Below are positions 42,526 through 63,737 of a stretch of DNA of 64,000 nt, in pieces (position 1 is the first letter of the stretch; every line of letters begins with the position of its first letter). The notes below the pieces were generated by a model. That model had not been told where the DNA came from. It searched no databases and was given only the letters and a program-made list of their open reading frames with translations. Position numbers and translations under genes: made by a program. The stretch is from assembly GCF_023558375.1 (NCBI RefSeq), contig NZ_CP083761.1, forward strand, positions 186,001-250,000, written 5' to 3'. Source of the stretch: Chroococcidiopsis sp. CCMEE 29. Lineage in GTDB: Bacteria; Cyanobacteriota; Cyanobacteriia; Cyanobacteriales; Chroococcidiopsidaceae.

Positions 42526-42580
42526 GGAGGGGCGAGGGGTTAGGGGTTAGGGATTAGGGAATGAAAATATATCTCTCCCT

Positions 42581-42625
42581 GCTTCCCCTGCTTCCCCTGC
42601 TTCCCCTGCTTCCCCTGCTTCCCCT
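42581..42625. repeat. tandem repeat, five copies of a 9-bp unit
   Basis: GCTTCCCCT repeated five times, preceded by GGGGTTA-type repeats at about 42537-42560. Shorter runs of the same unit occur at 3540-3565 and 5690-5700. It lies between the FIST gene and trmB. Confidence 0.85.
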
Positions 42626-42641
42626 GCTCTATCCGTATCCC

Positions 42642-47366: not shown

Positions 47367-48365
47367 CTAAACGTAGCTAGCCAAATCCACCAGACGATTC
47401 GTATAGCCCCACTCGTTGTCATAATATGCCAGCACTTTGACGAAGTTTTGGCCAAGAACATTCGTTGAGGGTAGATTCACAACTGCTGAGTGACCATCGC
47501 CTATACAGTCTGAGGACACTAAGGGTACCTCACTCACCTTAAGAATTCCGCTCATACCATTCGTAGCGTAATGGCGAAAAGCTTCATTTACCTCATCAAC
47601 TGTGACCGATTTTTCTAACACTGCACTTAAGTCTGTCACTGAGCCAGTAGCAGTGGGGACACGCAAAGCCATACCATCAAGCCGCCCTTTCAGTTCAGGC
47701 AAGACCAATGCTACAGCAGTAGCGGCTCCTGTAGTTGTGGGGACGATATTCTGCGCTGCACCACGACCCCGCGCCCACTCTTCAGGATGTCCCATGTCTA
47801 CCAAACGCTGATCGGCTGTGTAGGCGTGGACTGTAGTCATCAGTGCTTTCTCAATGCCAAACTCGTCATGTAGAATTTTGGCGATCGGTGTTAGGCAGTT
47901 GGTTGTACAAGAAGCAGCAGAAATTACGTTGTCTCGATCGCGATCGTAAGTTTCATGATTAACGCCATACACAAAAGTTGGCACCGAGGAACCTTTGGCT
48001 GGCGCACTGATAATTACTTTTTTGGCTCCCGCTTGTAGGTGCATTCCAGCTTTTTCGACAGTGCGAAATATTCCGGTAGACTCGATAACGACATCAATTC
48101 CCATTGACTTCCAGGCAAGGGCAGCTGGATCTCTTTCAGCTAACAAGTCAATTCGCTGGTCACCAATAATCAGACCTTTTTCGTCGTAGCCTACTTCAGC
48201 AGGAAAGCGCCGATATACAGAGTCGTATTGCAGTAGGTATGCGGCTACATCCGGTTTCAAGGCAATGTCGTTGATGGCTACGACTTCTAACTCTGGCTTG
48301 GAATGGGCGATGCGTAAGAAAGCGCGTCCGATCCGTCCAAATCCGTTGATGGCTACTCTTTTCAT
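47367..48365 (-). CDS. gap: type I glyceraldehyde-3-phosphate dehydrogenase, atypical isoform
   Basis: The 332-residue protein has the Rossmann start RVAINGFGRIGRAFLRIAHS, the catalytic SAASCTTNCLTPIAKIL and TTVHAYTADQRLVDMGH, GRGAAQNIVPTTTGAATAVA, and the end YYDNEWGYTNRLVDLA. The segment MALRVPTATGSVTDLSAVLE differs from the PTPNVSVVDL of plant/cyanobacterial Gap1 and Gap2, and INDIALKPDVAAYLLQYDSV also differs from Gap2. So I would not call it the Calvin-cycle NADPH enzyme. It may serve gluconeogenesis or glycolysis with the nearby ppsA, or be a third isoform. Coenzyme preference cannot be read safely. Confidence 0.9.
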   Translation of the reverse strand: MKRVAINGFGRIGRAFLRIAHSKPELEVVAINDIALKPDVAAYLLQYDSVYRRFPAEVGYDEKGLIIGDQRIDLLAERDPAALAWKSMGIDVVIESTGIFRTVEKAGMHLQAGAKKVIISAPAKGSSVPTFVYGVNHETYDRDRDNVISAASCTTNCLTPIAKILHDEFGIEKALMTTVHAYTADQRLVDMGHPEEWARGRGAAQNIVPTTTGAATAVALVLPELKGRLDGMALRVPTATGSVTDLSAVLEKSVTVDEVNEAFRHYATNGMSGILKVSEVPLVSSDCIGDGHSAVVNLPSTNVLGQNFVKVLAYYDNEWGYTNRLVDLASYV

Positions 48366-48821
48366 ATTTGCCTCTTTGATTTCAGCGATTAGTGATTAGC
48401 TAACTGCTAACAGTTAAGAGTTAACTATGCCGTAATCTAGGACACGGCTAGGTCAGGTTTAAGCTTTTAAACATCTAATTTGCCTGTTAGGGCAGAGCAG
48501 GGGGAGAAGAATTAATTGCTCCAGTTCAGAAATCTGCAAGTTCAATGTGCAATAGCTTAATTCAGTGTCTAGATATCTCTGTTGAGAACATCGGACGCTT
48601 CAAGAACGCTTCAAGAACGCTTCAAGAACGCCTGCTTTGATAGTTTGGTGTCATCGACCCAATTAAGAGAAGCTTCTATGACAAACGATGAAGTGCAAAC
48701 CCGTTTACGTTTAAAGGTGCTTTCCCCTGCCTCCCCTAACAGAAGTTAAGCAACAGGGCTTCCAGGGGTATAGAGGGTCATATAGATATACCAAGTTTAG
48801 AAATTAAGAGGTGAAAGTTCG
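48366..48821. promoter_or_regulatory. upstream region of the biosynthetic cluster
   Basis: A 456-base spacer. It holds the three 11-bp direct repeats (48596-48628), a possible -10 GATAGT at 48639-48644, and a short frame at 48678-48749 that may be a leader peptide or relic (MTNDEVQTRLRLKVL). An AGAGG-like sequence lies close to the methyltransferase start. Confidence 0.45.
48596..48628 (+). repeat. three perfect 11-bp direct repeats (putative SARP-type operator)
   Basis: CGCTTCAAGAA occurs three times head to tail with no spacing, and a fourth unit starts (CGCCTG). A period of 11 bases equals one helical turn, so all units face the same side of the DNA, as in operators of SARP-family activators. 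A weak -10 (GATAGT) begins ten bases after the last unit and no -35 is needed in such promoters. A gene for a SARP-domain protein lies 8.5 kb downstream. The functional reading is inference. Confidence 0.5.
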
Positions 48822-49874
48822 ATGAATGAAGCAAAGCTTAAAACATTCGTGGAGCAGATGGTCACCGATATGGCTGCTGCTATGTCAGGCGTGATGACTA
48901 ACATTGGACACAAACTCGGTTTTTACAAGGCGATGGCGGGTGCAGGTCCTCTAACACCTGCCCAGTTAGCGCAAAAAACCAATACTCACGAACGCTATGT
49001 GCTGGAATGGTTGAATAATCAAGCTGCTGGAGGCTACGTCACCTACGACCCCAGCAGTGGCACCTACGAGTTACCGGATGAACAGGCAATGGTACTAGCT
49101 AACCTAGACAGTCCGGTATTTATGGCTCCCGGTGTCGACACCATCTCTTCTGTGTGGTTGGACGAGGATAAAGTTATCGATGCCTTCCGAACTGGTAAGG
49201 GCATCGGCTGGCACGAACATCATCACCGACTGTTCTGTGGTACTGAAGCCTTTTTCCGCACGGGCTATCGATTTCACTTGACAACTGAATGGATTCCTGC
49301 TCTCGAAGGAGTCGAAGCAAAGTTGAAGGCAGGAGCGAAAGTGGCTGATGTAGGCTGCGGTCACGGTGCCTCCACTATTGTCATGGCTCAGGCTTATCCA
49401 AACTCCACCTTTTTCGGCTTCGACTATCACGATGAGTCAATTGAAACGGCTCGTCAACGAGCCAAGGAAGCCGGAGTTGCTGATCGAGTTAAATTTGAGG
49501 TTGCCGCTGCCAAGAATTTTCCTGGCTCTGGCTACGATTTGGTTTGCTTCATGGATTGTCTCCACGATATGGGAGATCCGGTGGGGGCTGCCAAACATAC
49601 TCGGCAAGTGCTGGCGCAAGATGGGACAGTGTTGCTCGTAGAACCGTTCGCTGGCAGGAACATTGAGGACAACCTCAATCCTGTGGGTCGGCTGTTTTAT
49701 GCTGCTTCAACGGCAGTCTGCACGCCCTGCTCGCTGTCCCAAGAAGTAGGACTCGGACTCGGAGCGCAAGCGGGCGAACGCAGGCTCTCTGAAGTTATGG
49801 CTGAGGCTGGGTTTACGCGCTTCCGCCGCGCCACGCAGACTCCGTTCAATCTCGTCTTAGAGGCGCGACCTTAA
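48822..49874 (+). CDS. class I SAM-dependent methyltransferase with N-terminal winged helix
   Basis: The 350-residue protein begins with a dimerisation/winged-helix part (GFYKAMAGAGPLTPAQLAQK, YVLEWLNNQAAGGYVTYDPS). Its Rossmann-like methyltransferase domain starts at about 165 with KVADVGCGHGASTIVMAQAY, the SAM motif, followed by FFGFDYHDESIETARQRAKE and DLVCFMDCLHDMGDPVGAAK. The layout resembles O-methyltransferases of natural-product pathways and the Rv2258c-type family. It is the first gene of the seven-gene plus-strand cluster and follows the 11-bp repeats. Confidence 0.88.
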   Translation: MNEAKLKTFVEQMVTDMAAAMSGVMTNIGHKLGFYKAMAGAGPLTPAQLAQKTNTHERYVLEWLNNQAAGGYVTYDPSSGTYELPDEQAMVLANLDSPVFMAPGVDTISSVWLDEDKVIDAFRTGKGIGWHEHHHRLFCGTEAFFRTGYRFHLTTEWIPALEGVEAKLKAGAKVADVGCGHGASTIVMAQAYPNSTFFGFDYHDESIETARQRAKEAGVADRVKFEVAAAKNFPGSGYDLVCFMDCLHDMGDPVGAAKHTRQVLAQDGTVLLVEPFAGRNIEDNLNPVGRLFYAASTAVCTPCSLSQEVGLGLGAQAGERRLSEVMAEAGFTRFRRATQTPFNLVLEARP

Positions 49875-49970: not shown

Positions 49971-51251
49971 ATGGATACACTTTTGTATCCTCCCGGTCTT
50001 AAGACTGCTTTAGATTTCCCGCTGGTGGAGGCATTGTTTGGCAGGCGAGCTCGTCGTTTCTCTCTCGGTGCCTCGATTCCTGATGGACCCCTAGCGTTCA
50101 CATCGCGCCACGATCCGTTACCACTCACCGAGCTAGAGCAGATGATGGTGTTAACAGCAGCCGCTGGCAACACAGGGTGGCATCACATGATTACGCGCCA
50201 CGCCAGATATGCCCCTCACTTGTCGAACTACTCTGCCGCTGCTGGAGGGCGCACCTTTCCTTCAGCTGCAGGTTTCCATACCAGCGAAATCTTTTTCACC
50301 AACGACGATGGAGTTTATTTCTTTGCAACTCGCGATGCAGGCGCTCTGGTTGAGCGGAAAGCAGATAAGGGTTTAGATCTGAATGCTCTGTTAGAAGCCC
50401 ATCACACCCGAATTCGCAAGCTAGCTGATGGTCGTCTGTACATCCCAGCGGCTGAACCCTACATGGAAGGACATAACACCTGGTGCGTCAATCGTCCTGG
50501 GAGCTTACTAATCATTCCTGTCGGCGACATCGCTCAGCACATGATCGCCAACCTGTGCTTCCTGGTGCAGAATGGCTACTGCATTTATGACGACGTAAAC
50601 CGGGAACAGATCCCAGGGTTGGAGCGCTTCCGGCAGCTTGTGAATGTGGACGAACCCTTCCCGATGACCTATATTGACCAGTATGCCCTCACGGAATGCA
50701 CTGCTGAACTTTCAACCTGTTGCTACGCCGGTATGCTGATGCTCCAAGCGATGGGATTAGGTGGCTGGATGTTTGATGGTATCGATCGCCACGTGGTGCT
50801 GGGTGCTAGTGGAGAGCCGAATGTACCAGGGTTAGGTTTCCGCTACGACACTGACGATCGCTGGGCGCTTCCCAACCCGACGGGCTTAGCGGGTGTGTTC
50901 GAGGCATTTTGTCCACCCCACTATCCCGATATGCGTGCCGCCGTCGAAGCCTTTGCCAAGCGGAAGTTTGGAGCAGGAGGACCATTTCATCCAGACACCC
51001 CCGGACCCTGGAAAGAGAGTGCTAAGGTGCGCGGAAGCGCTGAGGTTCACAGCGAAGAGTTCAAGGAATGCGTTGCCCTGATGGCGCAATATATCTGCGA
51101 TCGCTTCGGCAAATTCCCCGGTACGGTACCGAGCGTATTTATTCTCACCTATCTCCAAGCCCATCACTTAGATCTAGAGTTCTACGACCATCACTTCCAG
51201 CCAGAAGCCTACCTGGAGACTCATACTCAGCATATGGCGAATTGGCATTAA
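49971..51251 (+). CDS. uncharacterised protein, possibly nitroreductase-fold
   Basis: I do not firmly recognise this 426-residue protein. The N-terminal LVEALFGRRARRFSLGASIP and PLPLTELEQMMVLTAAAGNT resemble the arginine-rich FMN site and first helix of nitroreductases, and AMGLGGWMFDGIDRHVVLGA resembles their C-terminal glycine loop. The size is about double that of a simple nitroreductase, so it may be an internal fusion or a distinct family. Aromatic and His-rich stretches (TEFYDHHF-like LEFYDHHFQPEAYLETHTQH) close the protein. It has no signal peptide. It lies between the methyltransferase and the flavin oxidase in a likely operon. Confidence 0.6.
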   Translation: MDTLLYPPGLKTALDFPLVEALFGRRARRFSLGASIPDGPLAFTSRHDPLPLTELEQMMVLTAAAGNTGWHHMITRHARYAPHLSNYSAAAGGRTFPSAAGFHTSEIFFTNDDGVYFFATRDAGALVERKADKGLDLNALLEAHHTRIRKLADGRLYIPAAEPYMEGHNTWCVNRPGSLLIIPVGDIAQHMIANLCFLVQNGYCIYDDVNREQIPGLERFRQLVNVDEPFPMTYIDQYALTECTAELSTCCYAGMLMLQAMGLGGWMFDGIDRHVVLGASGEPNVPGLGFRYDTDDRWALPNPTGLAGVFEAFCPPHYPDMRAAVEAFAKRKFGAGGPFHPDTPGPWKESAKVRGSAEVHSEEFKECVALMAQYICDRFGKFPGTVPSVFILTYLQAHHLDLEFYDHHFQPEAYLETHTQHMANWH

Positions 51252-51294
51252 CGAAATTTAGAGAGGTTACTGCTCAAGCAAAAGGGGGAGCAAT

Positions 51295-52743
51295 ATGGTA
51301 AACCCATCTGTTACTACCACTACAGGTGAAGAAACCGTCCTTGAGGAAGCAGTAGTGGAGGCATTGAAGTCAAGCCTGCGCGGTGAGTTGCTGCGTCCTG
51401 GTGATGCAGGCTATGACGACGCTCGCCCAGTCTGGAACGGCATGATTGATCGCTACCCAGCACTCATCGCCCGTTGCACTGGCGAGTCGGATGTCATCAC
51501 TACTGTCAACTTTGCCCGCACTCACAATCTGCTGGTAGCCGTGCGCGGCGGTGGTCACAACGTTGCTGGCAACGCCACGTGCGATCGCGGTCTGGTCATT
51601 GACTTATCACTAATGAAGAGTGTCCGCGTAGATCCCAAAGCTCGTGTAGCTCGTGTCCAGGGAGGTGCTACTTGGGGCGACGTTGACCGGGAGACCCAAA
51701 GCTTCAACTTGGCGACTCCCGGCGGTCTGGTTTCGGAAACAGGAATTGCTGGATTAACCCTGGGTGGAGGCTTCGGCTGGCTGCGTGGTAAGTACGGTCT
51801 AAGCTGCGATAATCTCATCTCAGTAGATGTCGTCACGGCAGACGGTCAACTCCTGAAGGCGAGCGAGACGGAGAACAGCGATCTTTTCTGGGCTATTCGC
51901 GGTGGCGGCGGCAACTTCGGCATCGTCACCTCGTTTGAGTACCGCCTCCATCCTGTCGGTCCAGAAGTCATGTTTGTGTTTGTCTTTCATCACGGCGACA
52001 AGACGAGGGATGCATTGCGCTTTTACCGGGAATACTGTGCCACGGCTGTCGATGAGGTTACTTCCCTGGCCGTCTGCGGCATCATCCCCAGCAAGGAGCC
52101 ATTTCCTGAGGAAATTTATGGCATGCCCTTTGTCCTGTTTGCTGCTTGCTATGCCGGTGCCGTTGAGGAAGGCAAGCAAGTCCTGCAACCCTTACGGGAT
52201 TTCAGCGAACCCCTCATCGACTTCAGCGGAGCTATGCCTTATCTACAAGTGCAAACTATCTTTGATGAAGACTACCCGGCTCACAAGTTGCGCTACTACT
52301 GGAAAGCACTCAACTTGAAGGAAATGAGTGACGAAGCGATCGCCCGCATCGTCGAGCATGCTAGAAGCCAGGTATCACCACTAGCCACCACAGATATCTG
52401 GCAGATTAGCGGAGCCGTTCGCCAAATTGGTGAAGCGGAAACTGCTTTCAGCGGTCGTCAAGCTGCCTTCATGTTCAATGTCGAGGCAAACTGGATAGAC
52501 CCGCAAGAGGATGAGGCGAATATTACTTGGGTGCGCCAATTCGTCGATGCCATGCAGGAGTTCTCTGACGGTAGCCGCTACTTCAATTTCCCCGGATTCC
52601 TGGAGGAAGGTGATGCGGCGGTGCAAGCAACGTTTGGAGCCAAATATGAACGTCTGGTTGCCCTGAAAAACAAATACGATCCGACCAACTTGTTCCGCTT
52701 GAACCAGAACATCAAGCCAACCGGGGCTGTGTCCTATAGTTGA
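51295..52743 (+). CDS. FAD-dependent oxidoreductase, berberine-bridge-enzyme (BBE) type
   Basis: The 482-residue protein has the VAO/PCMH FAD domain VAVRGGGHNVAGNATCDRGL, whose His in GGGH is the usual 8-alpha attachment point. LVSETGIAGLTLGGGFGWLR and GKYGLSCDNLISVDVVTADG carry the cysteine that in BBE proteins gives a second flavin bond. The C-terminal BBE motif NKYDPTNLFRLNQNIKP is present. Such enzymes oxidise alcohols, sugars or cyclise natural products. It is 43 bases after the previous gene. Confidence 0.92.
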   Translation: MVNPSVTTTTGEETVLEEAVVEALKSSLRGELLRPGDAGYDDARPVWNGMIDRYPALIARCTGESDVITTVNFARTHNLLVAVRGGGHNVAGNATCDRGLVIDLSLMKSVRVDPKARVARVQGGATWGDVDRETQSFNLATPGGLVSETGIAGLTLGGGFGWLRGKYGLSCDNLISVDVVTADGQLLKASETENSDLFWAIRGGGGNFGIVTSFEYRLHPVGPEVMFVFVFHHGDKTRDALRFYREYCATAVDEVTSLAVCGIIPSKEPFPEEIYGMPFVLFAACYAGAVEEGKQVLQPLRDFSEPLIDFSGAMPYLQVQTIFDEDYPAHKLRYYWKALNLKEMSDEAIARIVEHARSQVSPLATTDIWQISGAVRQIGEAETAFSGRQAAFMFNVEANWIDPQEDEANITWVRQFVDAMQEFSDGSRYFNFPGFLEEGDAAVQATFGAKYERLVALKNKYDPTNLFRLNQNIKPTGAVSYS

Positions 52744-52826
52744 CACAAAATTTGGAGGTACCTTATGCAACTAGAAGCACCTTTTCGAGCAGCTACAATT
52801 AGTGACTGCTACAAAGAGGAGTTTAA

Positions 52827-53762
52827 ATGGCAAGATACAAATTTTACACTGCGGATGTGTTTACTAATGTTATTTTCGGCGGTAACCAACTGGCAGTGTT
52901 TCCAGATGGACGAGGAATTCCTGACAGCCTGATGCAGAAAATAGCTAGGGAATTTAACTTATCGGAGACAGCGTTCGTGTTTCCGCCCAAAGAACCTCGC
53001 CATACCAAGCAACTAAGAATTTTCACACCTGCTACTGAACTGCCTTTCGCCGGACACCCGACCGTTGGTACAGCTTACGTTTTGGCTACCATTGGTGAGA
53101 TTCTGCTGGAAGAGGAAACTACGAAAGTTGTATTTGAGGAGGGAGTTGGTCCGGTCGGTGTCGCGATCCATTCACAAAATGGCAAGCCTGTATCAGCATA
53201 TCTCACGGCTGCTCAACTGCCGCAATCTGGTCCGAATCCTCCTGAACCATCGACCCTTGCCGCAATCCTCTGTTTGAATGAAGACGATCTTCTCGTTGGG
53301 GAGTGGAGTTCAGCTGCTGTTTCGTGTGGGGTTCCCTTCCTGTTTGTCCCAGTGCGCGATCGCGATGCGCTGCGTCGGGCATCCGTAAATCGGGAACATT
53401 GGAACAGCCACCTGAAATCGTTCTGGGCTCCCCATCTGTACGTGTTCTGCTTCGAGCCCGAACGTCAAGGCTCGGATTTACGGGCGCGAATGTTTGCGCC
53501 AGCGATGGGTATTGAGGAAGATCCTGCTACAGGTGCAGCTGCATCTGCCCTGGCTGGGTATCTTGGCGTTCGCAACTCCATCTCTAGCGGTGTACTTCAG
53601 TGGACGGTGGAGCAGGGCTTTGAAATGGGTCGTCCCAGCATCCTAGATGTGCAAGCGGAGAAGGTAGATGGGCAAATAGTAGCGGTACGGGTTGGCGGTC
53701 AATCGGTCATGGTGAGTGAAGGAGCGATTGAGATCCCAGAAGGATTGCTGAAAAATGATTGA
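52827..53762 (+). CDS. PhzF family isomerase-like protein
   Basis: The 311-residue protein has the two similar halves of the DapF/PhzF fold. It starts [20 protein letters not shown], then [20 protein letters not shown] with the catalytic glutamate in [25 protein letters not shown] and, in the second half, [20 protein letters not shown]. PhzF makes the phenazine precursor by isomerising DHHA, but most relatives act on other compounds. It follows the oxidase by 83 bases (which hold a short frame MQLEAPFRAATISDCYKEE of unclear meaning) and overlaps the next gene by eight bases. Confidence 0.92.
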
Positions 53763-54327
53763 GCGACAATTTGCTCAGTTGATGGAATGTATGGATGAAC
53801 CAATTCGAATCACAACGCAACGATTAGAGGCGATCGCCCTCTATCCCGAACTGGCACGAGCCGCCGTTGTAGACCGAGACAAGCTATCTCGGATGCTAAA
53901 TGCCAAAGTGCCGGATGAATTTCCGCCTGAGAGCATGGCAGACGTAATGGAGTACTTTGCTCAACGCTTGGAAGCAGACCCAAATTTGGTCGGTTGGTGG
54001 GGCTGGTATCTAGTGCGGCATGAACCAGGTAGAGAACGGGTGTTGATTGGGACTGCTGGGTTTAATGGCTACCCCGACCAGGATGGCAACTTACTCATGG
54101 GATACGCGGTACTGAGTTCCTATGAGGGACAAGGTTATGCAACAGAAGCCGTTGGAGGACTGTTGAAATGGGCATTCCAGCATCCTCAAGTCATGGCTGT
54201 GACTGCTGAGACGTTTCCTGAGCACAAAGCCTCAATTCGAGTCATGGAAAAGAACAATATGGTTTTTTTGGGAGCAGGCAGTGAGGAGGGAACGGTTAAG
54301 TATGGGATTAGGCGCGTCACTACCTGA
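53755..54327 (+). CDS. GNAT acetyltransferase (RimJ/RimL type)
   Basis: The protein transfers an acetyl group from acetyl-CoA to an unknown amine. It has the recognition segment RITTQRLEAIALYPELARAA, the strand LIGTAGFNGYPDQDGNLLMG, the CoA loop LSSYEGQGYATEAVGGLLKW and the C-terminal FPEHKASIRVMEKNNMVFLG. The annotated start at 53755 overlaps the phzF-like gene by eight bases; an internal ATG at 53791 fits the domain better. It belongs to the same operon. Confidence 0.88.
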   Translation: MIERQFAQLMECMDEPIRITTQRLEAIALYPELARAAVVDRDKLSRMLNAKVPDEFPPESMADVMEYFAQRLEADPNLVGWWGWYLVRHEPGRERVLIGTAGFNGYPDQDGNLLMGYAVLSSYEGQGYATEAVGGLLKWAFQHPQVMAVTAETFPEHKASIRVMEKNNMVFLGAGSEEGTVKYGIRRVTT

Positions 54328-54344: not shown

Positions 54345-55589
54345 ATGAACATTCAAGAAGCGTTTAATGCTGCTGCTACCAATTATGATTACCTCCGTCG
54401 CACGCTGATTCCGTGTTTTGATGACTTTTACGGCACAGCCGTTGAGATGATCCCTGGCGATCGCACTGCTCCCTTAAAGGTTCTCGACTTGGGTGCAGGT
54501 ACCGGACTTTTCTCAGGTATGGTTCAGGCAGTCTTTCCCAACGCCGAATTGACGCTGCTGGACATCGCAACTGAGATGTTGGAGCAGGCAAAGGCTCGCT
54601 TTCATCAGCTGGGGAAATCTCCCAGCATTTTGATTGGCGACTACATTAAAACAGATCTCGGCGGTTCATACGACCTGATCGTTTCTGCCTTGTCTATTCA
54701 TCACCTACCCGATTCAGATAAAGAGCGCCTGTATCAGCGAATCTACAATGCGCTCAAGCCAGGAGGTATGTTTATTAATGCCGAGCAAGTTTTAGGCAGA
54801 ACGCCTGAGCTAGAGCAGTTTTATCAACAACAGTGGCTAGATACCGTACGCGATCGCGGCATTTCAGACGAACATCTGCGCGCCGCCCAGCATCGGATGA
54901 CCTACGATGATCTGGCAACCCTTGACGCTCAATTACAATGGCTGGAAGCCACAGGATTTGAGAATGTAGATTGTTGGTACAAGCATTTCAGCTTTGCCGT
55001 GTTTGGCGGCTATCGTCCTGAACAAGAGCCAAAAACGCAACAGCCGACGCTCCACACTCAGCGGCTGATCCTGCGTCCCTTCACACTGACTGATGCACCC
55101 GATGTGCAACGGTTAGCTGGCGCGCGCGAAGTTGCTGCCATGACGCTGGCGATTCCCCATCCCTACAAAGATGGCATGGCAGAGGGGTGGATTAAGACTC
55201 ATCCCGCAGCATTTGAAAAAAAAAAGGCAGTTAACTTGGCGATCGCTCTGCGAGAAACTGGAGAACTTTGTGGGGCGATCGGTTTAGGAATTGATGCCGA
55301 AAATAACAACGCTGAAATAGGCTACTGGATTGGCAAACCTTACTGGGGGCAAGGTTACTGTACTGAAGCCGCAGCAGTTTTGCTGCAATACGGTTTTGAG
55401 GTACTTGGACTGCACCGCATCCACTCTACCCACTTCTCGCACAACCCAGCTTCAGGACGAGTGATGCAGAAGATTGGCATGAGCTACGAAGGATGCCGCC
55501 GTGAATACACGCTGAAATGGGGAAAGTTTGAGGATCTCGTACTGTACGGCATTTTAAAAAGTGATTGGCAGCAAAGGCAAAAGCCATGA
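54345..55589 (+). CDS. fusion: SAM-dependent methyltransferase + GNAT acetyltransferase
   Basis: Residues about 1-225 form a class I methyltransferase: NIQEAFNAAATNYDYLRRTL, then LKVLDLGAGTGLFSGMVQAV (SAM motif), LTLLDIATEMLEQAKARF and DLIVSALSIHHLPDSDKERL. Residues about 235-410 form a RimJ/RimL-type acetyltransferase: LHTQRLILRPFTLTDAPDVQ, IGYWIGKPYWGQGYCTEAAA with the CoA loop, and HSTHFSHNPASGRVMQKIGM. Both halves look complete. A two-domain enzyme acting on one product is likely. The stop overlaps the next start as ATGA. Confidence 0.88.
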   Translation: MNIQEAFNAAATNYDYLRRTLIPCFDDFYGTAVEMIPGDRTAPLKVLDLGAGTGLFSGMVQAVFPNAELTLLDIATEMLEQAKARFHQLGKSPSILIGDYIKTDLGGSYDLIVSALSIHHLPDSDKERLYQRIYNALKPGGMFINAEQVLGRTPELEQFYQQQWLDTVRDRGISDEHLRAAQHRMTYDDLATLDAQLQWLEATGFENVDCWYKHFSFAVFGGYRPEQEPKTQQPTLHTQRLILRPFTLTDAPDVQRLAGAREVAAMTLAIPHPYKDGMAEGWIKTHPAAFEKKKAVNLAIALRETGELCGAIGLGIDAENNNAEIGYWIGKPYWGQGYCTEAAAVLLQYGFEVLGLHRIHSTHFSHNPASGRVMQKIGMSYEGCRREYTLKWGKFEDLVLYGILKSDWQQRQKP

Positions 55590-56419
55590 CACAACAATCC
55601 TTGAAACCAAAGATCGCTATTTTAGACACCACTATGCGGGATGGGGAACTAATGCCGGATGTCAAAATGGATATTCAGCAAAAAATCAGCCTTGCCCAGC
55701 TGCTGGAGGAAATGCGCGTTGATGTGATTGAGGTAGGATATCCAGGAGCTTTCAGGCAAGATTTTGATGCACTCTTCATGGTCTCAAAGCAAATTAAACA
55801 AGCAACGATTTGCGGGTTGGCGAGTTCCAAGCTAGATGAAGTGGTTGATGTTGCCTTAGCGATCAAACCAGCTGCGCGTGGCAGAATTCATGTTTACACG
55901 CCAGTGAACCTGAAGCAACAATCGTCATGGACTGAAGCACAAACCCTAGAAGCAATACACGACAGTGTTGGACTTGCTAGAAATTACTGCGCCGACGTGG
56001 AATGGAGTGGATTTGATGCTCCCAGAAGTGAACCAGATTTTCTCTGTAAAGCCATCGAAACAGCAATTAAAAGCGGTGCAACGACAGTTAATATTCCTGA
56101 CAGTTTAGGGTTGTTGTCACTAGCAGAGTTCTCCCAACTTTTAGAGATGCTCTTCAACCGTATACCTAATATTGATCGCGCTACGGTTTCTGTTCACTGT
56201 CATGATGACTTAGGGTTAGCTGTGGAGAATTCGCTCGTTGCTCTTGCTTGTGGTGCGCGACAAATTGAATGCTCAATTAATGGACTGGGGGCACGCAAGG
56301 GAAATGCCGATTTAGGAGCAGTGGTAAGGGCGATTTCCAATCATCCAGACTACAGCGTTGATGTTGAAACTGCTTTGCTCGATAAAGTTTCAGAGTTAGT
56401 GACTCAAATTACTGGGTAA
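55586..56419 (+). CDS. HMGL-like (isopropylmalate/homocitrate synthase-type) short enzyme
   Basis: A TIM-barrel of the DRE-TIM metallolyase family that condenses an acyl-CoA with an oxoacid or cleaves such a product. The start [17 protein letters not shown] is the divergent form of DTTLRDGEQ. Metal ligands appear in [20 protein letters not shown]. The usual GxGERxGN reads [15 protein letters not shown]. At 277 residues it lacks the communication and regulatory domains of LeuA. I chose the ATG at 55586, which overlaps the upstream stop. It is probably a pathway enzyme and not a leucine enzyme. Confidence 0.87.
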
Positions 56420-56803
56420 TTCTCAACTGCCCCTAATGCCTTCAACGCTATCTTCTGAGCCTCTGTCAAACCCTTAACTCCAGCGATATTTATGCCTTCA
56501 TAGGGACGTTCAGCTCGGAGGGTTTGCAGGCATTCACCCGTCTCGACATCCCAAATCTTGATGAGCCTCCTTTCCCTTTCTTATCCCCCGTTCGCCCAGC
56601 GCATGACTGAGCAGTTTCCAGAGTTTGGGACCCACTCCTTGTTTGAGGTAGCTGGCAGAGTATCCGTAGGCTTCAGCAATTTCTTCATAGGTTTGCCCTT
56701 GCCAAGCACCTTGCAGAACCGCCACTTCTACGTCAGTTAGTCATCTCCCGGTATTGGCAAAAATGATTGTGTTTGCAACCCCAAGTGCTTGCTCGAAGTT
56801 CAT
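56404..56803 (-). pseudogene. collapsed NB-ARC/WD40 gene: N-terminal and C-terminal ends only
   Basis: From an ATG at 56803 the minus strand reads MNFEQALGVANTIIFANTGR, TGA, then LTDVEVAVLQGAWQGQTYEE and IAEAYGYSASYLKQGVGPKL, the N-terminal domain that starts many cyanobacterial NB-ARC-WD40 proteins. Near 56570 it jumps, in another frame, to [20 protein letters not shown] and [20 protein letters not shown], the last WD40 strand and C-terminal tail. Everything between is deleted. The tail closely matches residues about 1395-1440 of the giant protein downstream. Its 3' end overlaps the HMGL-like gene by 16 bases on the other strand. Confidence 0.87.
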
Positions 56804-57086: not shown

Positions 57087-60000
57087 ATGCTAGCTACTAC
57101 AGACAGGCAGAGCAGACATGATATGCTGGCTACTCTACAGATCAAGTTGCTGGGTGACTTTCGTCTGATCTATGGTGAAAAGCCTGTGACAGAGGTGAAC
57201 GCCGAGCGATCGCAGTCTTTACTGGCTTACTTGGTACTGCATCGCAGTGCGCCCCAGCCCCGGCAGAGGCTTGCCAGTCTCTTCTGGCCTGACTCAACAG
57301 ATGCTCAAGCCCGAACAAACCTGAGGAGAGAACTGCACCACCTACGTCATGTTCTGCCTGATGCTGACCAATTTATAGACGTTGATACCAGAACCTTACA
57401 GTGGCGAGCAGATGCGCCATTTACTCTGGATGTTGCTGAGTTCGAGCAGGCAGTGGCTCAGGCGGAGGAAGCAGCAAGAACAACTGACCTAAAAACTGTT
57501 CGGACGGCTTTAGAGCTAGCAGCCAACCTTTATCAAGGTGACTTGCTTTCTAACTGCTACGATGAGTGGATATTGCCGGAACAGGAACGGCTACGGCAAA
57601 CCTATCTCCGAGTTTTGGAATGGCTAGTGCGCCTATTGATAGAGCGACGGGATACCCGTGCAGCTATGCGCTACGCACAACAGTTGCTTGAGGTCGAGCC
57701 GTTGAACGAGGCAACGTATAAGGATTTGATGCAACTGCACGCACTCAATGGCGATCGCGCTGGTGCTTTGCGGATCTACCACCGCTGCATGACCATTTTG
57801 CGAGAAGAGTTAGGAATCGATCCCAGCCCTGCTATTCGCAATCTCTACAATCGCCTGCTAAATGAAACAGACCCTGAACTTCAACCCCCATCTAACTCAT
57901 CTCCAAATTCCCCCCTCCCCCCACTCTTCGAGAAGCCGCTTGCGCGTCTACGTCCCACTCTTCGAGAAGCCGCTTGCGCGTCTACGCCCCTCGCCCCTCA
58001 CACTGACTGGGGTGAAGCCGTTGATGTTAGCAATTTTTACGGACGGACAAAGGAGTTAAACACACTCAAGCAGTGGATTTTGCAGTATCGCTGTCGGCTA
58101 ATTGCCCTATTAGGGATGGGTGGAATTGGCAAAACCGCTTTATCGGCAAAGCTGGCGCAGGAAATCCAAGGGGAGTTTGATTATGTGATTTGGCGATCGC
58201 TGCGACATGCTCCTAAGCTGGAAACTTTGCTGAGCGACTTACTCGCCTTTTTATCCGATCAACAAGAGACTAAAGGTGAATTGGAGCGCCTGACGTATTG
58301 GCTGCGGACTTCCCGTTGCCTGGTAATCCTGGATAATGCAGAAACCCTTTTGCAAGTGAGTAGTCCAGGGCAATATCGTTCTGGTTATGAGGATTACGGA
58401 GAACTATTGCGGGTAATTGGAGAAACAGCCCACCAAAGTTGCCTAGTTCTAACCAGTCGTGAAAAACCGGCTGAGATCGCCTGGTTGCAAGGCGTAGAAG
58501 TATATAGCGATTCGCCCTTACCCGTACGGACATTGCAACTGGGCGGTTCCCTAGAAGCAGTTAAAGCATTGATTCAAGCAAAAGGGTTGATTGGTTCTGA
58601 GACGCAACAGCAGCAGTTGTGTCACTTTTATGGCTATAACCCGCTAGCGCTGAAGATTGTTGCCACTTCCATTCAAGATGTTTTCGATGGCAAGATTCAA
58701 GATTTCCTCGCCCAAAACACAACGGTTTTCAAGGGGATCAACCGACTCCTAGACGAGCAGTGCCAGCGGTGTTCTCCCTTAGAAAAGACTATCATGTACT
58801 GGCTGGCGAGCAATCGCGAGTGGACAACTTTCTCGGAATTGGCAGCCGATATTGTACCAACCGTTTCTCGTGCAGACCTATTGGAAGCACTGGAATCACT
58901 CAGTTGGCGATCGCTGCTCGAAAAGCAGTCGGGCAGTTACACCCAGCAACCCGTTGTGATGGAGTACGTGACTGAGCAGTTAATTGAAAAAGTCTGCGAG
59001 GAGGTCTTAGGGGTCAGGGAAGATCTACATCCTACTCCCTATTCCCATACAGGTCAGTTTATCAGACAGACTTGTGAGCCAACAAATAAATCAGTTAAAC
59101 CCACCCCTATTTCCTTATTACAGAGCCATGCATTGCTCAAAGCTCAGGGGAAAGACTACATCAGAGACATTCAAATCCAACAAATTGTCAAGCCCGTTCT
59201 CAACACTCTGATTACGCGGCTGAATGGGCAGCAAAATGTGGAGCGGCTACTCACTCAACTAATCGTAAAACTGCGAAATGAATTGTCGCTACAGCCAGGA
59301 TATGCAGGGGGCAACATCCTGAACCTGCTGATTCAACTAGGTAAAGATTTAACGAGCTATGACTTTTCCCATCTTGCTCTCTGGCAGGCTGATCTGCGAG
59401 AGGTGAATCTGCATCAAGTCAATCTTGCCCATGCTGACTTATCAAGGACTGTTTTTACAGAACCCCTCAGCCTTGCTCTAACCGTTGCCTTCAGTCCTGA
59501 TGGACAACTCCTGGCGACAGGCGATACCAACTGCGAGGTGCGGGTGTGGAGAGTGGCCGATGGAAAAAACTTGATAACCTGTCAGGGACACACCAATTGG
59601 GTTTGGTCAATTGCCTTCAGTCCTGATGGGCAAACTCTCGCCAGTGGCAGCGATGACAAGACTATCAAACTGTGGGATCTCTCAACGGGGCAATGTCATC
59701 AAACCTTACGGGAACATACGCACCAAATTTGGTCGATTGCCTTCAGTCCCGATGGTCAAACCTTAGCAAGCGCCAGTGAGGATCGGACAGTCAAACTGTG
59801 GGATCTCTCAACAGGGCAATGTCGTCAAACATTGAATGGACATGAGAAGTGGGTGCGGTCGGTCGCTTTCAGTCCCAATGGGCAAACTCTCGCTAGTGGC
59901 AGCGATGACAAGACTGTCAAACTGTGGGATCTCAGGACAGGCGAATGCTACCAGACGCTACAGGGACACACGAGCTTGGTTTGGTCGGTTGCCTTTAGCC

Positions 60001-63000
60001 CAGATGGTCAAATACTGGCAAGCGGTAGTAGCGATCAAACGATCAAGCTATGGAAGTTCACGACTGGTGAGTGCTGCCAAACCCTCAAAGGGCATGGAAA
60101 TTGGGTGCGAGCGATCGCCTTTAGTCCCGATGGGCAAATCCTAGCTAGTGGCAGTGAAGACCATACAGTAAAGCTGTGGCAAGTTGACACTGGAGAATGC
60201 TACCAGACGCTAAGGGGGCACACAAATTGGGTGCGATCAGTTGCTTTTAGCCCTGACGGAGAAACGCTGGCAAGTGGTAGCGGTGACCATACTGTTAAGC
60301 TGTGGCATTCCTCTACTGGTCAATGTCGGAAAACGCTACAAGGCTACACCAATCGAGTTTGGTCGGTTGCCTTCAGTCCGATCTCCCCAACCCCCCTTAC
60401 CAAGCGGAGCGAAGGGGGGATCTTGGCAAGTGGCAATGACGATCGCACTGTCAAGCTCTGGAATCTGAGCACGGGTAAATGTTTCCGAACGTTGCAGGGG
60501 CATACAAATACAGTTTTTACCGTTGCCTTCAGCCCGGATGGTGGAATTATTGCTAGTGGCAGTGGCGATCAGACAGTGAAACTTTGGGATATTCATACAG
60601 GGGAATGTCGCCAAACATTACGCGGTCACACCAGTCGGATTTGGTCGGTTGTATTTAGTCCCGATGGTCGCACTCTAGCTAGTGGGAGTGATGACCGGAC
60701 GGTAAAACTTTGGGATATTCATACAGGGGAATGCCGCCGGACATTGCAGGGACACACCAGTTGGATCTGTTCTATCGCTTTTAGTCCTGATGGTCAAACT
60801 CTAGCTAGTGGGAGTTATGACCAGACAGTGAAACTTTGGGATATTCATACAGGGGAATGCCGCCGGACATTTCTAGGACACAATAATTGGGTCTGGTCGG
60901 TTGCCTTCAGTTCGCTTCCCCCAACCCCCCTTACTAAAGAGAGCGAAGAGGGGATCTTGGCGAGTGGCAGCGGGGATAGCAGTATCAAGCTATGGGACAT
61001 TCGGACAGGACAGTGCCGCTGCACTCTGGAAGGACATACCAGTCGAGTCTGGTCGGTTGCCTTTAGCCCCATCCCCCCAACCACTCTTAGTAAGGGGGAG
61101 GAAGGTGAAATCCTCGCCAGCGCCAGTAGCGACCAAACAGTGAAGCTTTGGGATGTACAAACGGGCGCTTGTCGCCACACCTTGCAAGGGCATACAAATT
61201 TGGTCTGGTCGGTTGCCTTCAGCCCGGATGGTCGAACTCTTGCCAGTGGCAGCCAGGACGAAACAATTAAGCTTTGGGACGTGCAAACGGGACAAAGCTT
61301 GAAAACCTTGAGGGCTGACCGACCCTACGAGGGAATGAATATCATAGAAGTTACCGGATTAACAGCAGCCCAAAAGTCTGCATTGAAAGCATTGGGAGCA
61401 ATAGAAGACAGAGGAGCAAAAAAAGACAAGGACAGGGGGAAATGGAGAGAATCTCAACTTTCAACTTCTGAATCCCGACTCTCGACTCTCCTAGTAGGGC
61501 GTGAGCAAGAATGGACAACCATCAGCAATTGGGTGGTATCTGCCACGGAAACAGCTGTCTCAGAAATTCTCATGCTAGTTGGCGAATCGGGAATTGGTAA
61601 GACCCGCTTGTTGGAAGAACTTGCTGCCGAAGTGAAAGCTGCCAACGGTCACGTGCTTTGGGGACGTGGGTTTGAGGCTGAAATGCTGCGACCTTATGGA
61701 GCCTGGATTGATGCGCTTCGAGCGATCGCCCTCAATTCAATTGTGGAATTGCCAGCAGAACTGAGTTCATTCTTCCCAGAAGTAGAGGCAAGGCAAGCAA
61801 ATCCGGTTGATCGCAGTCAGTTATTCGATGCGGTTGTACACTTACTGTCTCAGCTTACGAGCAATGGCACGCTGACCGTCATTATTCTGGATGACATTCA
61901 ATGGCTGGATGAGGCATCTACTGCACTGCTGCACTATGCAATTCGATTACTTAGCCATTCGCCAGTCCACTTTGCCTGTGCTGCTCGTCAACGCGAGTTA
62001 GAGGATAATGTACCAGTCTGCAAACTAGTACAAGCCCTGCGGCGGGAACAGCGGCTGCAAACTATTGAGATATCATTATTGAATCAAGAGCAAGTTATTC
62101 AGCTGGCTCACTCGATTAATACTGGCATTGATGGCACCCGAGTATTTATTGACAGTGGTGGTAATCCCTTCTTTGCCATAGAAATCACCCGCGCGATCGC
62201 CGAGCGCGATCCGGCTTGCTCCGATAACTTAGAAGCCCTAATTCAAGACCGACTGAGGCAGCTTGATGAACCGGCTCGCGAACTTTTACCTTGGGCAGCG
62301 GCATTGGGTCGCAGCTTCAGCCCAGCGATTGTGGCGCGAGTTGCAGACTGTCCGCCAATCAAATTACTCGCTGCTATGGAACAACTCGAACAGCAGGGGA
62401 TCGTCTGTCCGGGAGCACCATCCAACGGCGAAATTGGTTATGACTTTGCCCATGATATTGTGCGTCAAGTTGCTTATCAGCAACTGTCGGCACCTCGTCG
62501 CCGATTAGTGCATTTGCAAATCGCTCGTGTTTTGGAAAAACTCTCTGCTCCTGACAATGCTCTTGCCAGTGAGGTAGCGTATCATGCGACACTCGGTAGC
62601 GACCATCTATTGGCAGCTTCGGCTTTCCTAGCTGCAGCTGAACGCTGTCTGCGCCTGTTTGCCTACGCCGAAGCCTCTGAACTGGCTCAGCGGGGAATTC
62701 AGCACTGTCAAGATCTTGATAACGATTTACGGGTTCGTCTAAATATCCGGCTACTCAAAGTTTACGTCTTGGCTGGAGTGACAACAGAGCGAGTTTCTCA
62801 GCTGGAAGATAACCTACACCAGCTAATTGCTGAAGCCAATGCTCGTGGTCTAAAGGATGAAGAAGCGATCAGCTTGGAGGCATTGATCGCACTCAACTAC
62901 GATCGCGGCAACCTCACAAGTGTGCACAAACATTCTCTGCGCGTGGCGGAGCAAGGGCGAGCGGCAAGCCCAGCAATTACTGCACGCATGTTAGCTTATA

Positions 63001-63737
63001 GCGGTTGGTGCCTTGCTGAAATTGAACGTGAAATGCCGCGTGCTGAAGCACTTTTGCTCGAAGCGCAATCGCTTGCAGCGAGAGTAGGGCTGGAAATTAT
63101 CGATATTTCCTGTGGTTTGGGTTGTGTTCGTCGTCATGCGGCTGACTTCGCTGGAGCACGTCCACTCTTGGAAAAAGCATGGCGCATGGCTCAAGCAGAG
63201 CAGGATCACTGGCGAGAATGTGCTTGCTTAACTTACCTAGCGATGACTGAGTTAGAAGCTGGGAAACCAACTGCTGCGATCGCACACTGTCAGGAGCTGG
63301 CAACTGTAGCAGCTAAGATCAGTGGTGAAGGCAGTGAAGGTTCTTTTGCAGTTGTACTCAATTCCCTTGCTAATTATGTCATGGGACAAAGCGATGCGGC
63401 AGCAATAGAGCAAGCCTTATCAACCCTACGCCAGATCGACGCCAACCGCATGCTGGCATATAGTCTCACCTTTGCCGCAGAGATTGATTTGGATAATCAC
63501 CGGATTGAATTGGCGATCGCTCGTGCCCAAGAAGCACTCCAAGCTGCTCAAATTGTAGATTGCTCTAGTGAAATAGCTCTAGCTTGGGTAGCACTGATTC
63601 GGGGAATGCTGATTTTAGGTAAACCTCAGTGTGCACTAGAGTTGTTCCAAGATTTACAGCGTCAAATTGACCGTCGCACCCTGAGTACCCGCGCCCTTAC
63701 TGCTATCGATTGCCTAGCTCAGCACTTGCCAGCTTAG
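57087..63737 (+). CDS. giant SARP/BTAD - NB-ARC - 14x WD40 - AAA ATPase - TPR-like regulator
   Basis: A 2216-residue multidomain protein. Residues about 15-105: OmpR/SARP-type winged helix ([40 protein letters not shown]). About 110-265: BTAD domain. About 315-650: NB-ARC with Walker [14 protein letters not shown] (near 340) and [13 protein letters not shown], then LTSREKP. About 795-1410: fourteen WD40 blades, enough for two propellers. About 1475-1750: a second ATPase of the MalT/AAA_16 type with Walker [16 protein letters not shown] and [14 protein letters not shown]. The remainder is TPR-like helices. The probable job is ligand-gated activation of transcription; no ligand is known. It lies 667 bases after the enzyme cluster in the same direction. 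Confidence 0.9.
57920..57986 (+). repeat. 34-bp tandem duplication inside the giant gene's linker
   Basis: The unit starting CCCACTCTTCGAGAAGCCGC and ending GCGTCTACG occurs twice in a row (57920 and 57954). It encodes [11 protein letters not shown] then [10 protein letters not shown] in two different frames, since 34 is not a multiple of three. It lies between BTAD and NB-ARC, so the linker tolerates it. Confidence 0.8.
60381..60422 (+). repeat. palindromic repeat inserted in frame in WD40 blade 8, first of three
   Basis: Where other blades read FSPDGQ-LASG this one reads [20 protein letters not shown]. The DNA is the dispersed CCCCAACCCCCCTT...AAGGGGGGATC palindrome. Two similar insertions lie at 60912-60957 ([14 protein letters not shown]) and 61069-61110 ([13 protein letters not shown]), all at the same loop position. 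Confidence 0.8.
60912..60957 (+). repeat. palindromic repeat inserted in frame in a WD40 blade, second of three
   Basis: CCCCCAACCCCCCTTACTAA followed by AGAGAGCGAAGAGGGGATC. It replaces the DGQ turn of a blade and adds about ten residues without breaking the frame. Confidence 0.75.
61069..61110 (+). repeat. palindromic repeat inserted in frame in a WD40 blade, third of three
   Basis: CCCCATCCCCCCAACCACTC then TTAGTAAGGGGGAGGAAGG, more diverged than the other two but at the same blade position and of the same length class. Confidence 0.7.

Follow-up and report, generated by a model that had tools for sequence, protein, structure and literature searches.

A predicted SARP-type operator of 11-bp direct repeats upstream of a methyltransferase gene in Chroococcidiopsis and its relatives in other cyanobacterial genomes

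The repeat array upstream of a methyltransferase gene in the window (the whole analysed stretch of 64,000 nucleotides from Chroococcidiopsis sp. CCMEE 29) is part of a conserved element whose architecture recurs before a recurring gene set and which co-occurs with orthologs of a SARP-type regulator encoded in the same window. That this element is a conserved, promoter-proximal operator can be held with high confidence and, judged from sequence comparison, the array is probably the operator of a SARP-activated promoter, the predicted site of the SARP ortholog group. SARPs are activators of antibiotic clusters in actinobacteria. It is proposed that at least two SARP-domain subunits of the window regulator would bind side by side on heptamers (GAWCGCT followed by 4 bp) placed one helical turn apart. 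Bound in this way, with the last heptamer 8 bp ahead of TAGTTT, the -10, the subunits would replace the missing -35 contact and recruit RNA polymerase. We infer that such binding would switch on the 48822 methyltransferase gene, probably together with the genes that follow it, and would act in trans on a second methyltransferase gene 38 kb away, and that the NB-ARC/WD40 part of the regulator may sense a signal. The positions of all these features are collected in Table 1.

Table 1. Features of the predicted operator and of the genes that follow it (window coordinates)
Feature	Position	Strand	Basis or remark
Heptamer 1, degenerate, GGACGCT	48593-48599	+	Register from the ungapped 13-site alignment
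Heptamer 2, GAACGCT, then spacer TCAA	48604-48610	+	13-site alignment; match of the leave-own-out model starts here
Heptamer 3, GAACGCT, then spacer TCAA	48615-48621	+	13-site alignment
Heptamer 4, promoter-proximal, GAACGCC	48626-48632	+	13-site alignment
8-bp spacer, last heptamer to -10	48633-48640	+	Equal length in the 13 aligned sites
Predicted -10 TAGTTT, no -35	48641-48646	+	T, A and final T invariant in 13 of 13 sites
First gene downstream, Rv2258c-like methyltransferase, predicted target	48822-49874	+	Pfam PF13847, PF21320; next plus-strand ORF, beginning 229 bp from the start of the operator
Co-directional genes: 426-aa protein without Pfam match, FAD/BBE oxidase, PhzF family, GNAT	49971-54327	+	Possibly further members of the transcript
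Methyltransferase-GNAT fusion gene and HMGL-like gene	54345-56419	+	Unit with the SARP gene kept in G056 and G078 (tblastn synteny, 76-77% identity)
SARP-type regulator, 2216 aa: N-terminal AfsR-like region with BTAD, NB-ARC, WD40 repeats, C-terminal part	57087-63737	+	Predicted activator

The motif family emerged from a 22-mer search of the loci with SARP orthologs, in which one match with 4 mismatches was found in G354 and one with 5 mismatches in G056 (G numbers denote genomes). These two were more alike to each other than to the query, and around them the same kind of repeat was seen upstream of a second Rv2258c-like methyltransferase gene in the CCMEE 29 genome and in G056. A pattern made from the shared positions gave sites in G078, G043, G033, G060 and, with 4 mismatches, G244 (loci in hand), and a looser 24-base pattern applied to 388 genomes brought in G376 as well as additional places. 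At one mismatch the 24-base pattern is at noise level, with 25 genomes matched versus 27 for the reversed pattern; exact matches occurred in 7 genomes, five of which carry a SARP ortholog, the others being G043 and G200. Thirteen sites with promoter context were retained for alignment. Left out by judgement on context were G060:C64, G200, G110, G220, G182, G300, G195, G227, G148, G146, G127, G143, G186 and G003, and left out without a view of context were G096, G029, G134 and G144. Six of the context-inspected dropped matches lie outside ORFs of at least 60 aa (G060:C64, G200, G220, G182, G127 and G143) and the other ones inside an ORF; by eye, TA stands at the expected distance in G220 and not in G060:C64, G200, G110 or G182.

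The 13 sites, which come from nine genomes, align without gaps and consist of two or three GAWCGSTTnnR units, a GAWCGCT-like heptamer, 8 bp and a TAnnTT-like -10. TA at a fixed place served as the anchor of the alignment and is present in all 13, and the final T of the hexamer, also invariant, was no part of this requirement; the 11-bp period runs through all 13 sites as it does through the window array. Comparison with the 12 other sites sets the full window element at 48593-48646. Over two units of the 13 sites, the information content is 1.4-2 bits at most GAWCGSTT positions (0.9-1.0 at W and S) versus 0.4-1.2 at nnR. Nine sites that had not been used for training show, on visual reading, the 8-bp spacing to the -10 as well; most of them had been detected by a model that covers the -10, and their hexamers are TAnnTT in seven cases, TACTAT in G243c and TATCTG in G043d. 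The sequence-only reading had pointed to a GATAGT ten bases past the three copies as a possible -10; this hexamer lies at 48639-48644, after ten intervening bases, and the -10 itself has been moved two bases to the right, to TAGTTT, so that transcription would be expected to start near 48653. No sigma-70-type promoter pair was found in 48366-48830, and upstream of the -10 the match to TTGACA is 2 of 6 at 16 bp, 0 of 6 at 17 bp and 1 of 6 at 18 bp.

This arrangement can be compared with described SARP promoters. According to the available text of the AfsR study (PMC10936776), repeats are spaced by 11 or 22 bp, the 3' one lying 8 bp away from the -10, and the AfsR structure shows contacts to the first 8 bp of each 11-bp repeat and none to the last 3. 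The window site has the 11-bp direct repeats, the conserved heptamer with a less conserved spacer, the 8 bp to the -10 and the missing or poor, overlapped -35 of a SARP operator. Its closest counterpart is the afs box of AfsR from Streptomyces coelicolor (PDB 8hvr, 8jke, 8k60), where 11-bp direct repeats beside the -10 also take the place of a good -35, as far as the account in PMC10936776 goes. AfsR is likewise a large regulator in which a SARP domain is followed by a nucleotide-binding domain, whereas its repeat, given as CGTT(T/C)ATCGNN in the available part of PMC10972967, differs from GAWCGSTTnnR of the window family, its box has two repeats in contrast to four window heptamers, and AfsR ends in TPRs while the window regulator carries WD40 repeats. 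The PimR operator (SARP-LAL, Streptomyces natalensis) is built, in the accessible text of PMC5930380, of three heptamers with four-nucleotide spacers, and binding needs two heptamers. It resembles the window site in this spacing and differs in its heptamer (CGGCAAG), in showing no overlap with the -35 as described in that text, and in belonging to an actinobacterial antibiotic cluster.

As regards the regulator, Pfam recognises BTAD (PF03704, 103.3 bits versus a cut-off of 22.1, 1.9e-29), NB-ARC (9.3e-11) and WD40, and the best PDB sequence matches of the N-terminal part are AfsR (1.5e-13) and EmbR (1.6e-9). Within a 248-residue N-terminal query, residues 24-246 align with AfsR and 5-247 with EmbR, and Pfam gave no DNA-binding match. 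It had been claimed that this is the sole SARP gene of the window; the whole genome has no other strong BTAD/SARP gene, this one scoring 105.9 bits and the two other Pfam BTAD matches 25.5 and 23.6 bits. A single-sequence AlphaFold2 model of the SARP domain was too poor to use (mean pLDDT 58.6, DNA-binding half mostly below 50). The AfsR equivalog NF053617 matches an N-terminal piece of 422 residues with 75.7 bits versus a curated cut-off of 1430, and by these scores the regulator is a SARP relative and not AfsR itself. In most orthologs the position of the AfsR recognition helix is occupied by NLR[RK]xLxxLR or something close to it. The base-contacting T88 and R92 of AfsR, as named in the available text of PMC10936776, are replaced in the orthologs by R or K and by varied residues, respectively, and both are replaced in the window regulator, a change which fits the different repeat sequence without being positive proof. 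The open frame of the regulator exceeds 2100 aa in CCMEE 29, G056 and G078 and measures about 1050-1090 aa in the other carriers of the order; the WD40 part is absent in G033, so the WD40 repeats were gained or lost. An inverted fragment at 56422-56562, between the HMGL-like and SARP genes, shares 72% identity, over 47 residues, with the SARP protein at its WD40 end.

SARP-domain orthologs (at least 48% identity) are present in 10 of 388 genomes of the order, CCMEE 29 included. When model R1, built from all 13 sites, was scanned over 388 genomes of the order, sites at E<=1e-3 appeared in 9 of the 10 carriers (all but G358) versus 3 of 378 others (G043, G159 and G174; Fisher p 4e-15), a statistic that is partly circular because the motif was first seen in SARP loci and nine genomes supplied the model. 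A cut of E<=3e-4 had been chosen after the list was seen, and E<=1e-3 is reported here, which adds the ortholog-less G159 and G174. Among genomes without training sites, 1 of 2 carriers has sites versus 2 of 377 others (p 0.016), and the p-values overstate independence because the genomes are related to different degrees. G243, an untrained carrier, has two sites on the contig that encodes its regulator, one full-length (34 bits) and one partial, together with a weaker third. In a draw of 119 genomes from the phylum, an ortholog of that grade was found only in CCMEE 29 and in G395 (54%), a member of another order, and sites at E<=1e-3 only in these two; genomes with only distant SARP domains (about 23-36% identity) gave no site at E<=1e-3. 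The two sites of G395 are full-length (E 4.6e-7 and 7.7e-7), and neither of its weaker matches (E 0.0025 and 0.019), one of them in or beside other reading frames, was used. The 11 carriers span eight families of two orders. The connection of the repeat with the SARP gene, earlier an inference only, is now backed by comparative data, namely by the SARP geometry and by a motif which is almost confined to genomes with a SARP ortholog.

Direct repeats of 11 bp whose last heptamer stands 8 bp before the -10 are the SARP signature given in the literature, which argues for the SARP protein and against another regulator that would bind a conserved promoter element of the same architecture and only co-occur with the SARP gene, an explanation regarded as unlikely. 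In 7 of the 11 carriers (G000, G056, G033, G060, G244, G354 and G243) a site is also located no more than about 17 kb from the regulator gene. Site and regulator are on different contigs in G078 and G376, and in G395 they are megabases apart, which would suit another regulator, as would the lack of conservation of the base-contacting residues of AfsR. Such a regulator would also suit G043, where sites occur at three places (E<=3e-4) but no BTAD match exceeds 24 bits in an assembly that is 92% complete, and the reverse case of G358, which has a SARP ortholog (48%) yet no site at E<=0.05. If the methyltransferase, which has a winged-helix domain of its own, is taken as such a regulator, it predicts the sites worse than the SARP gene does, since sites are found in 6 of the 28 order genomes with a relative at E<=1e-40.

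Coming back to the array itself, the three perfect head-to-tail copies of CGCTTCAAGAA noticed in the sequence-only reading are found at exactly 48596-48628, with no other exact occurrence in the window, and the perfect array extends over 48595-48631 (3.36 units, period 11 bp, 100% match; Tandem Repeats Finder). It exceeds chance expectation, as ten second-order Markov versions of a 400-kb sample of the own genome contained no perfect array of at least 3 copies and at least 20 bp. A 1.324-Mb sample of the own genome, which includes 10 kb counted twice, holds 77 perfect arrays with at least 3 copies and a period of 5-40: 51 of period 7, 16 of period 9, 5 of period 8, 2 of period 6, 2 of period 5 and 1 of period 11, the last being the window array. 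The genome is rich in short tandem repeats, and the array is unusual in kind and alone insufficient to argue for an operator.

Neutral slippage, by which the array would be one more of the common short tandem repeats of this genome, was favoured at first (the orthologs of the 48822 gene had no upstream array, the cluster was not conserved, and the genome gave no further two-copy match) and was rejected because the motif appeared in other genomes; it is now judged very improbable. The many perfect tandem arrays of the genome would agree with it, and the three window units, being identical at all 11 positions with the spacer included, fit a recent expansion, but no second array of period 11 occurs in the sample, and the element is seen again, its -10 fixed and its spacers diverged, in further families and in a second order. 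Furthermore, when a model trained on the 11 sites from genomes other than the own one was applied to the 1.324 Mb, the window site (48604-48648, E 6e-5, with the alignment extending through the -10) took the first rank and the site of the second methyltransferase the second (E 5.8e-4), the sole further match up to E 1 being one at E 0.21. In stricter whole-genome scans with model R1 the window site reached only E 0.006 and 0.003, despite its place in the training set. The two-copy 22-base query with up to 3 mismatches found no place in the whole genome besides the window array; such an exact 22-mer with 3 mismatches missed the motif family because it was too strict. With up to 2 mismatches, the 24-base pattern is found at only two places of the whole genome, the window and the promoter of the paralogous methyltransferase, 38 kb apart, and the reversed pattern gives six matches, so the two places stand out by exactness and not by number.

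Cyanobacterial short tandemly repeated repeats are perfect short tandem copies in intergenic DNA, period-7-like and dispersed over the genome. The window array, which shares with them the perfect short copies and the intergenic location, was considered as one of them and rejected, as it has a period of 11 in contrast to 7-9 in the own genome, occurs at two places only, keeps a conserved promoter position and has no other two-copy match within 3 mismatches. A perfect 9-bp tandem array of a type common in this genome, CCCTGCTTC x5.8, is present at 42577-42628 of the window.

Regulation of the divergent glyceraldehyde-3-phosphate dehydrogenase gene (47367-48365, minus strand) from the site, for which the position of the array within the shared intergenic region could be quoted, is hardly credible, since the repeats and the -10 face the methyltransferase gene, most other strong sites, so oriented, precede a co-directional gene, and a dispersed repeat separates the array from the dehydrogenase gene. 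This dispersed repeat (48460-48561, just upstream of the operator) is about 50-140 bp long, has at least 10 further genomic places (11 of 97 candidates scored), ends by eye with TAAGCT...AGCTTA and contains internal GCAGGGG repeats in some copies; it looks like a small mobile or structural repeat.

The genes that follow the sites fall into recurring kinds. Methyltransferases of the same kind as that at 48822 stand behind sites in the own genome (twice), G056, G078 and G043, and one of the G395 sites precedes a two-gene unit whose second gene is 77% identical to the own second methyltransferase; a weak site in G174 precedes a 90-aa frame which is 82% identical to it over 78 residues. GNAT proteins follow sites in G244 and G243 (64% mutual identity), and a GNAT of another kind follows one in G395. 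A protein of 173-176 aa, of one family, comes after sites in G056, G078, G033 and G060, at a distance of about 700 bp in the last two. Proteins with a pre-peptidase C-terminal domain are found behind sites in G354 and G376 (83% identical), with a different protein of that domain in G043, and a 309-aa protein follows a site in G043 and a weak site (E 0.002) in G243 (83% identical). Targets seen once are a 596-aa protein in G376 and a membrane methyltransferase-like protein in G243. It is fairly likely that a SARP regulon extends across cyanobacterial families and two orders, in which AfsR-like regulators (with WD40 in some lineages) would act on -35-less GAWCGSTTnnR promoters of methyltransferases, GNAT acetyltransferases, pre-peptidase-domain proteins and other small proteins. 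Operators would have been gained before new gene blocks, for example before the window cluster, whose relatives elsewhere lack them.

The window cluster is not conserved as a unit. In none of the fetched loci are the methyltransferase block and the regulator kept together, and in other carriers the motif precedes other genes; the G056 regulator ortholog keeps the methyltransferase-GNAT fusion, the HMGL-like gene and a 109-aa gene alongside, without the array-proximal block. Neither at ten cyanobacterial orthologs of the 48822 methyltransferase (75-82% identity) nor at nine further loci does an array occur in the 450 bp upstream. Over the stretch that each locus covers, which is short for L057, L069, L071 and L074, no other cluster gene lies nearby, with the exception of L068 and its two distant SARP-like matches. 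Of 90 loci scanned with model R1, 88 surround a relative of the 48822 methyltransferase and 2 a relative of the 426-aa protein; none gave a match at E<=0.1.

Among the literature matches listed, judged by titles and the openings of abstracts and with subscription papers mostly uncovered, no description of a cyanobacterial SARP operator was found, which is weak evidence of absence; SARP operators as such are already known, and the window case would on this evidence belong to a phylum without a described one. An operator with a conserved distance to the -10 offers a testable cyanobacterial activator-promoter pair, and the motif can be used for finding targets in other genomes and may give a way to switch on a silent gene block.

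Some further observations concern single genes of the cluster. The 426-aa protein (49971-51251) has no Pfam or NCBIfam match, and a search of 59 other genomes gave relatives in 2, one of which is split into two matches and has a stop codon. With a proteobacterial protein in L059 (Rhodospirillaceae) the 48822 methyltransferase shares 78% identity, which is as close as its cyanobacterial relatives are (L057-L067) and suggests horizontal transfer. In L068, a Minwuiaceae MAG (a proteobacterium), a 70% identical relative of this methyltransferase lies within about 10 kb of the two SARP-like matches (28% and 32%) and of a second methyltransferase of the same kind; no site is predicted at this locus by model R1.
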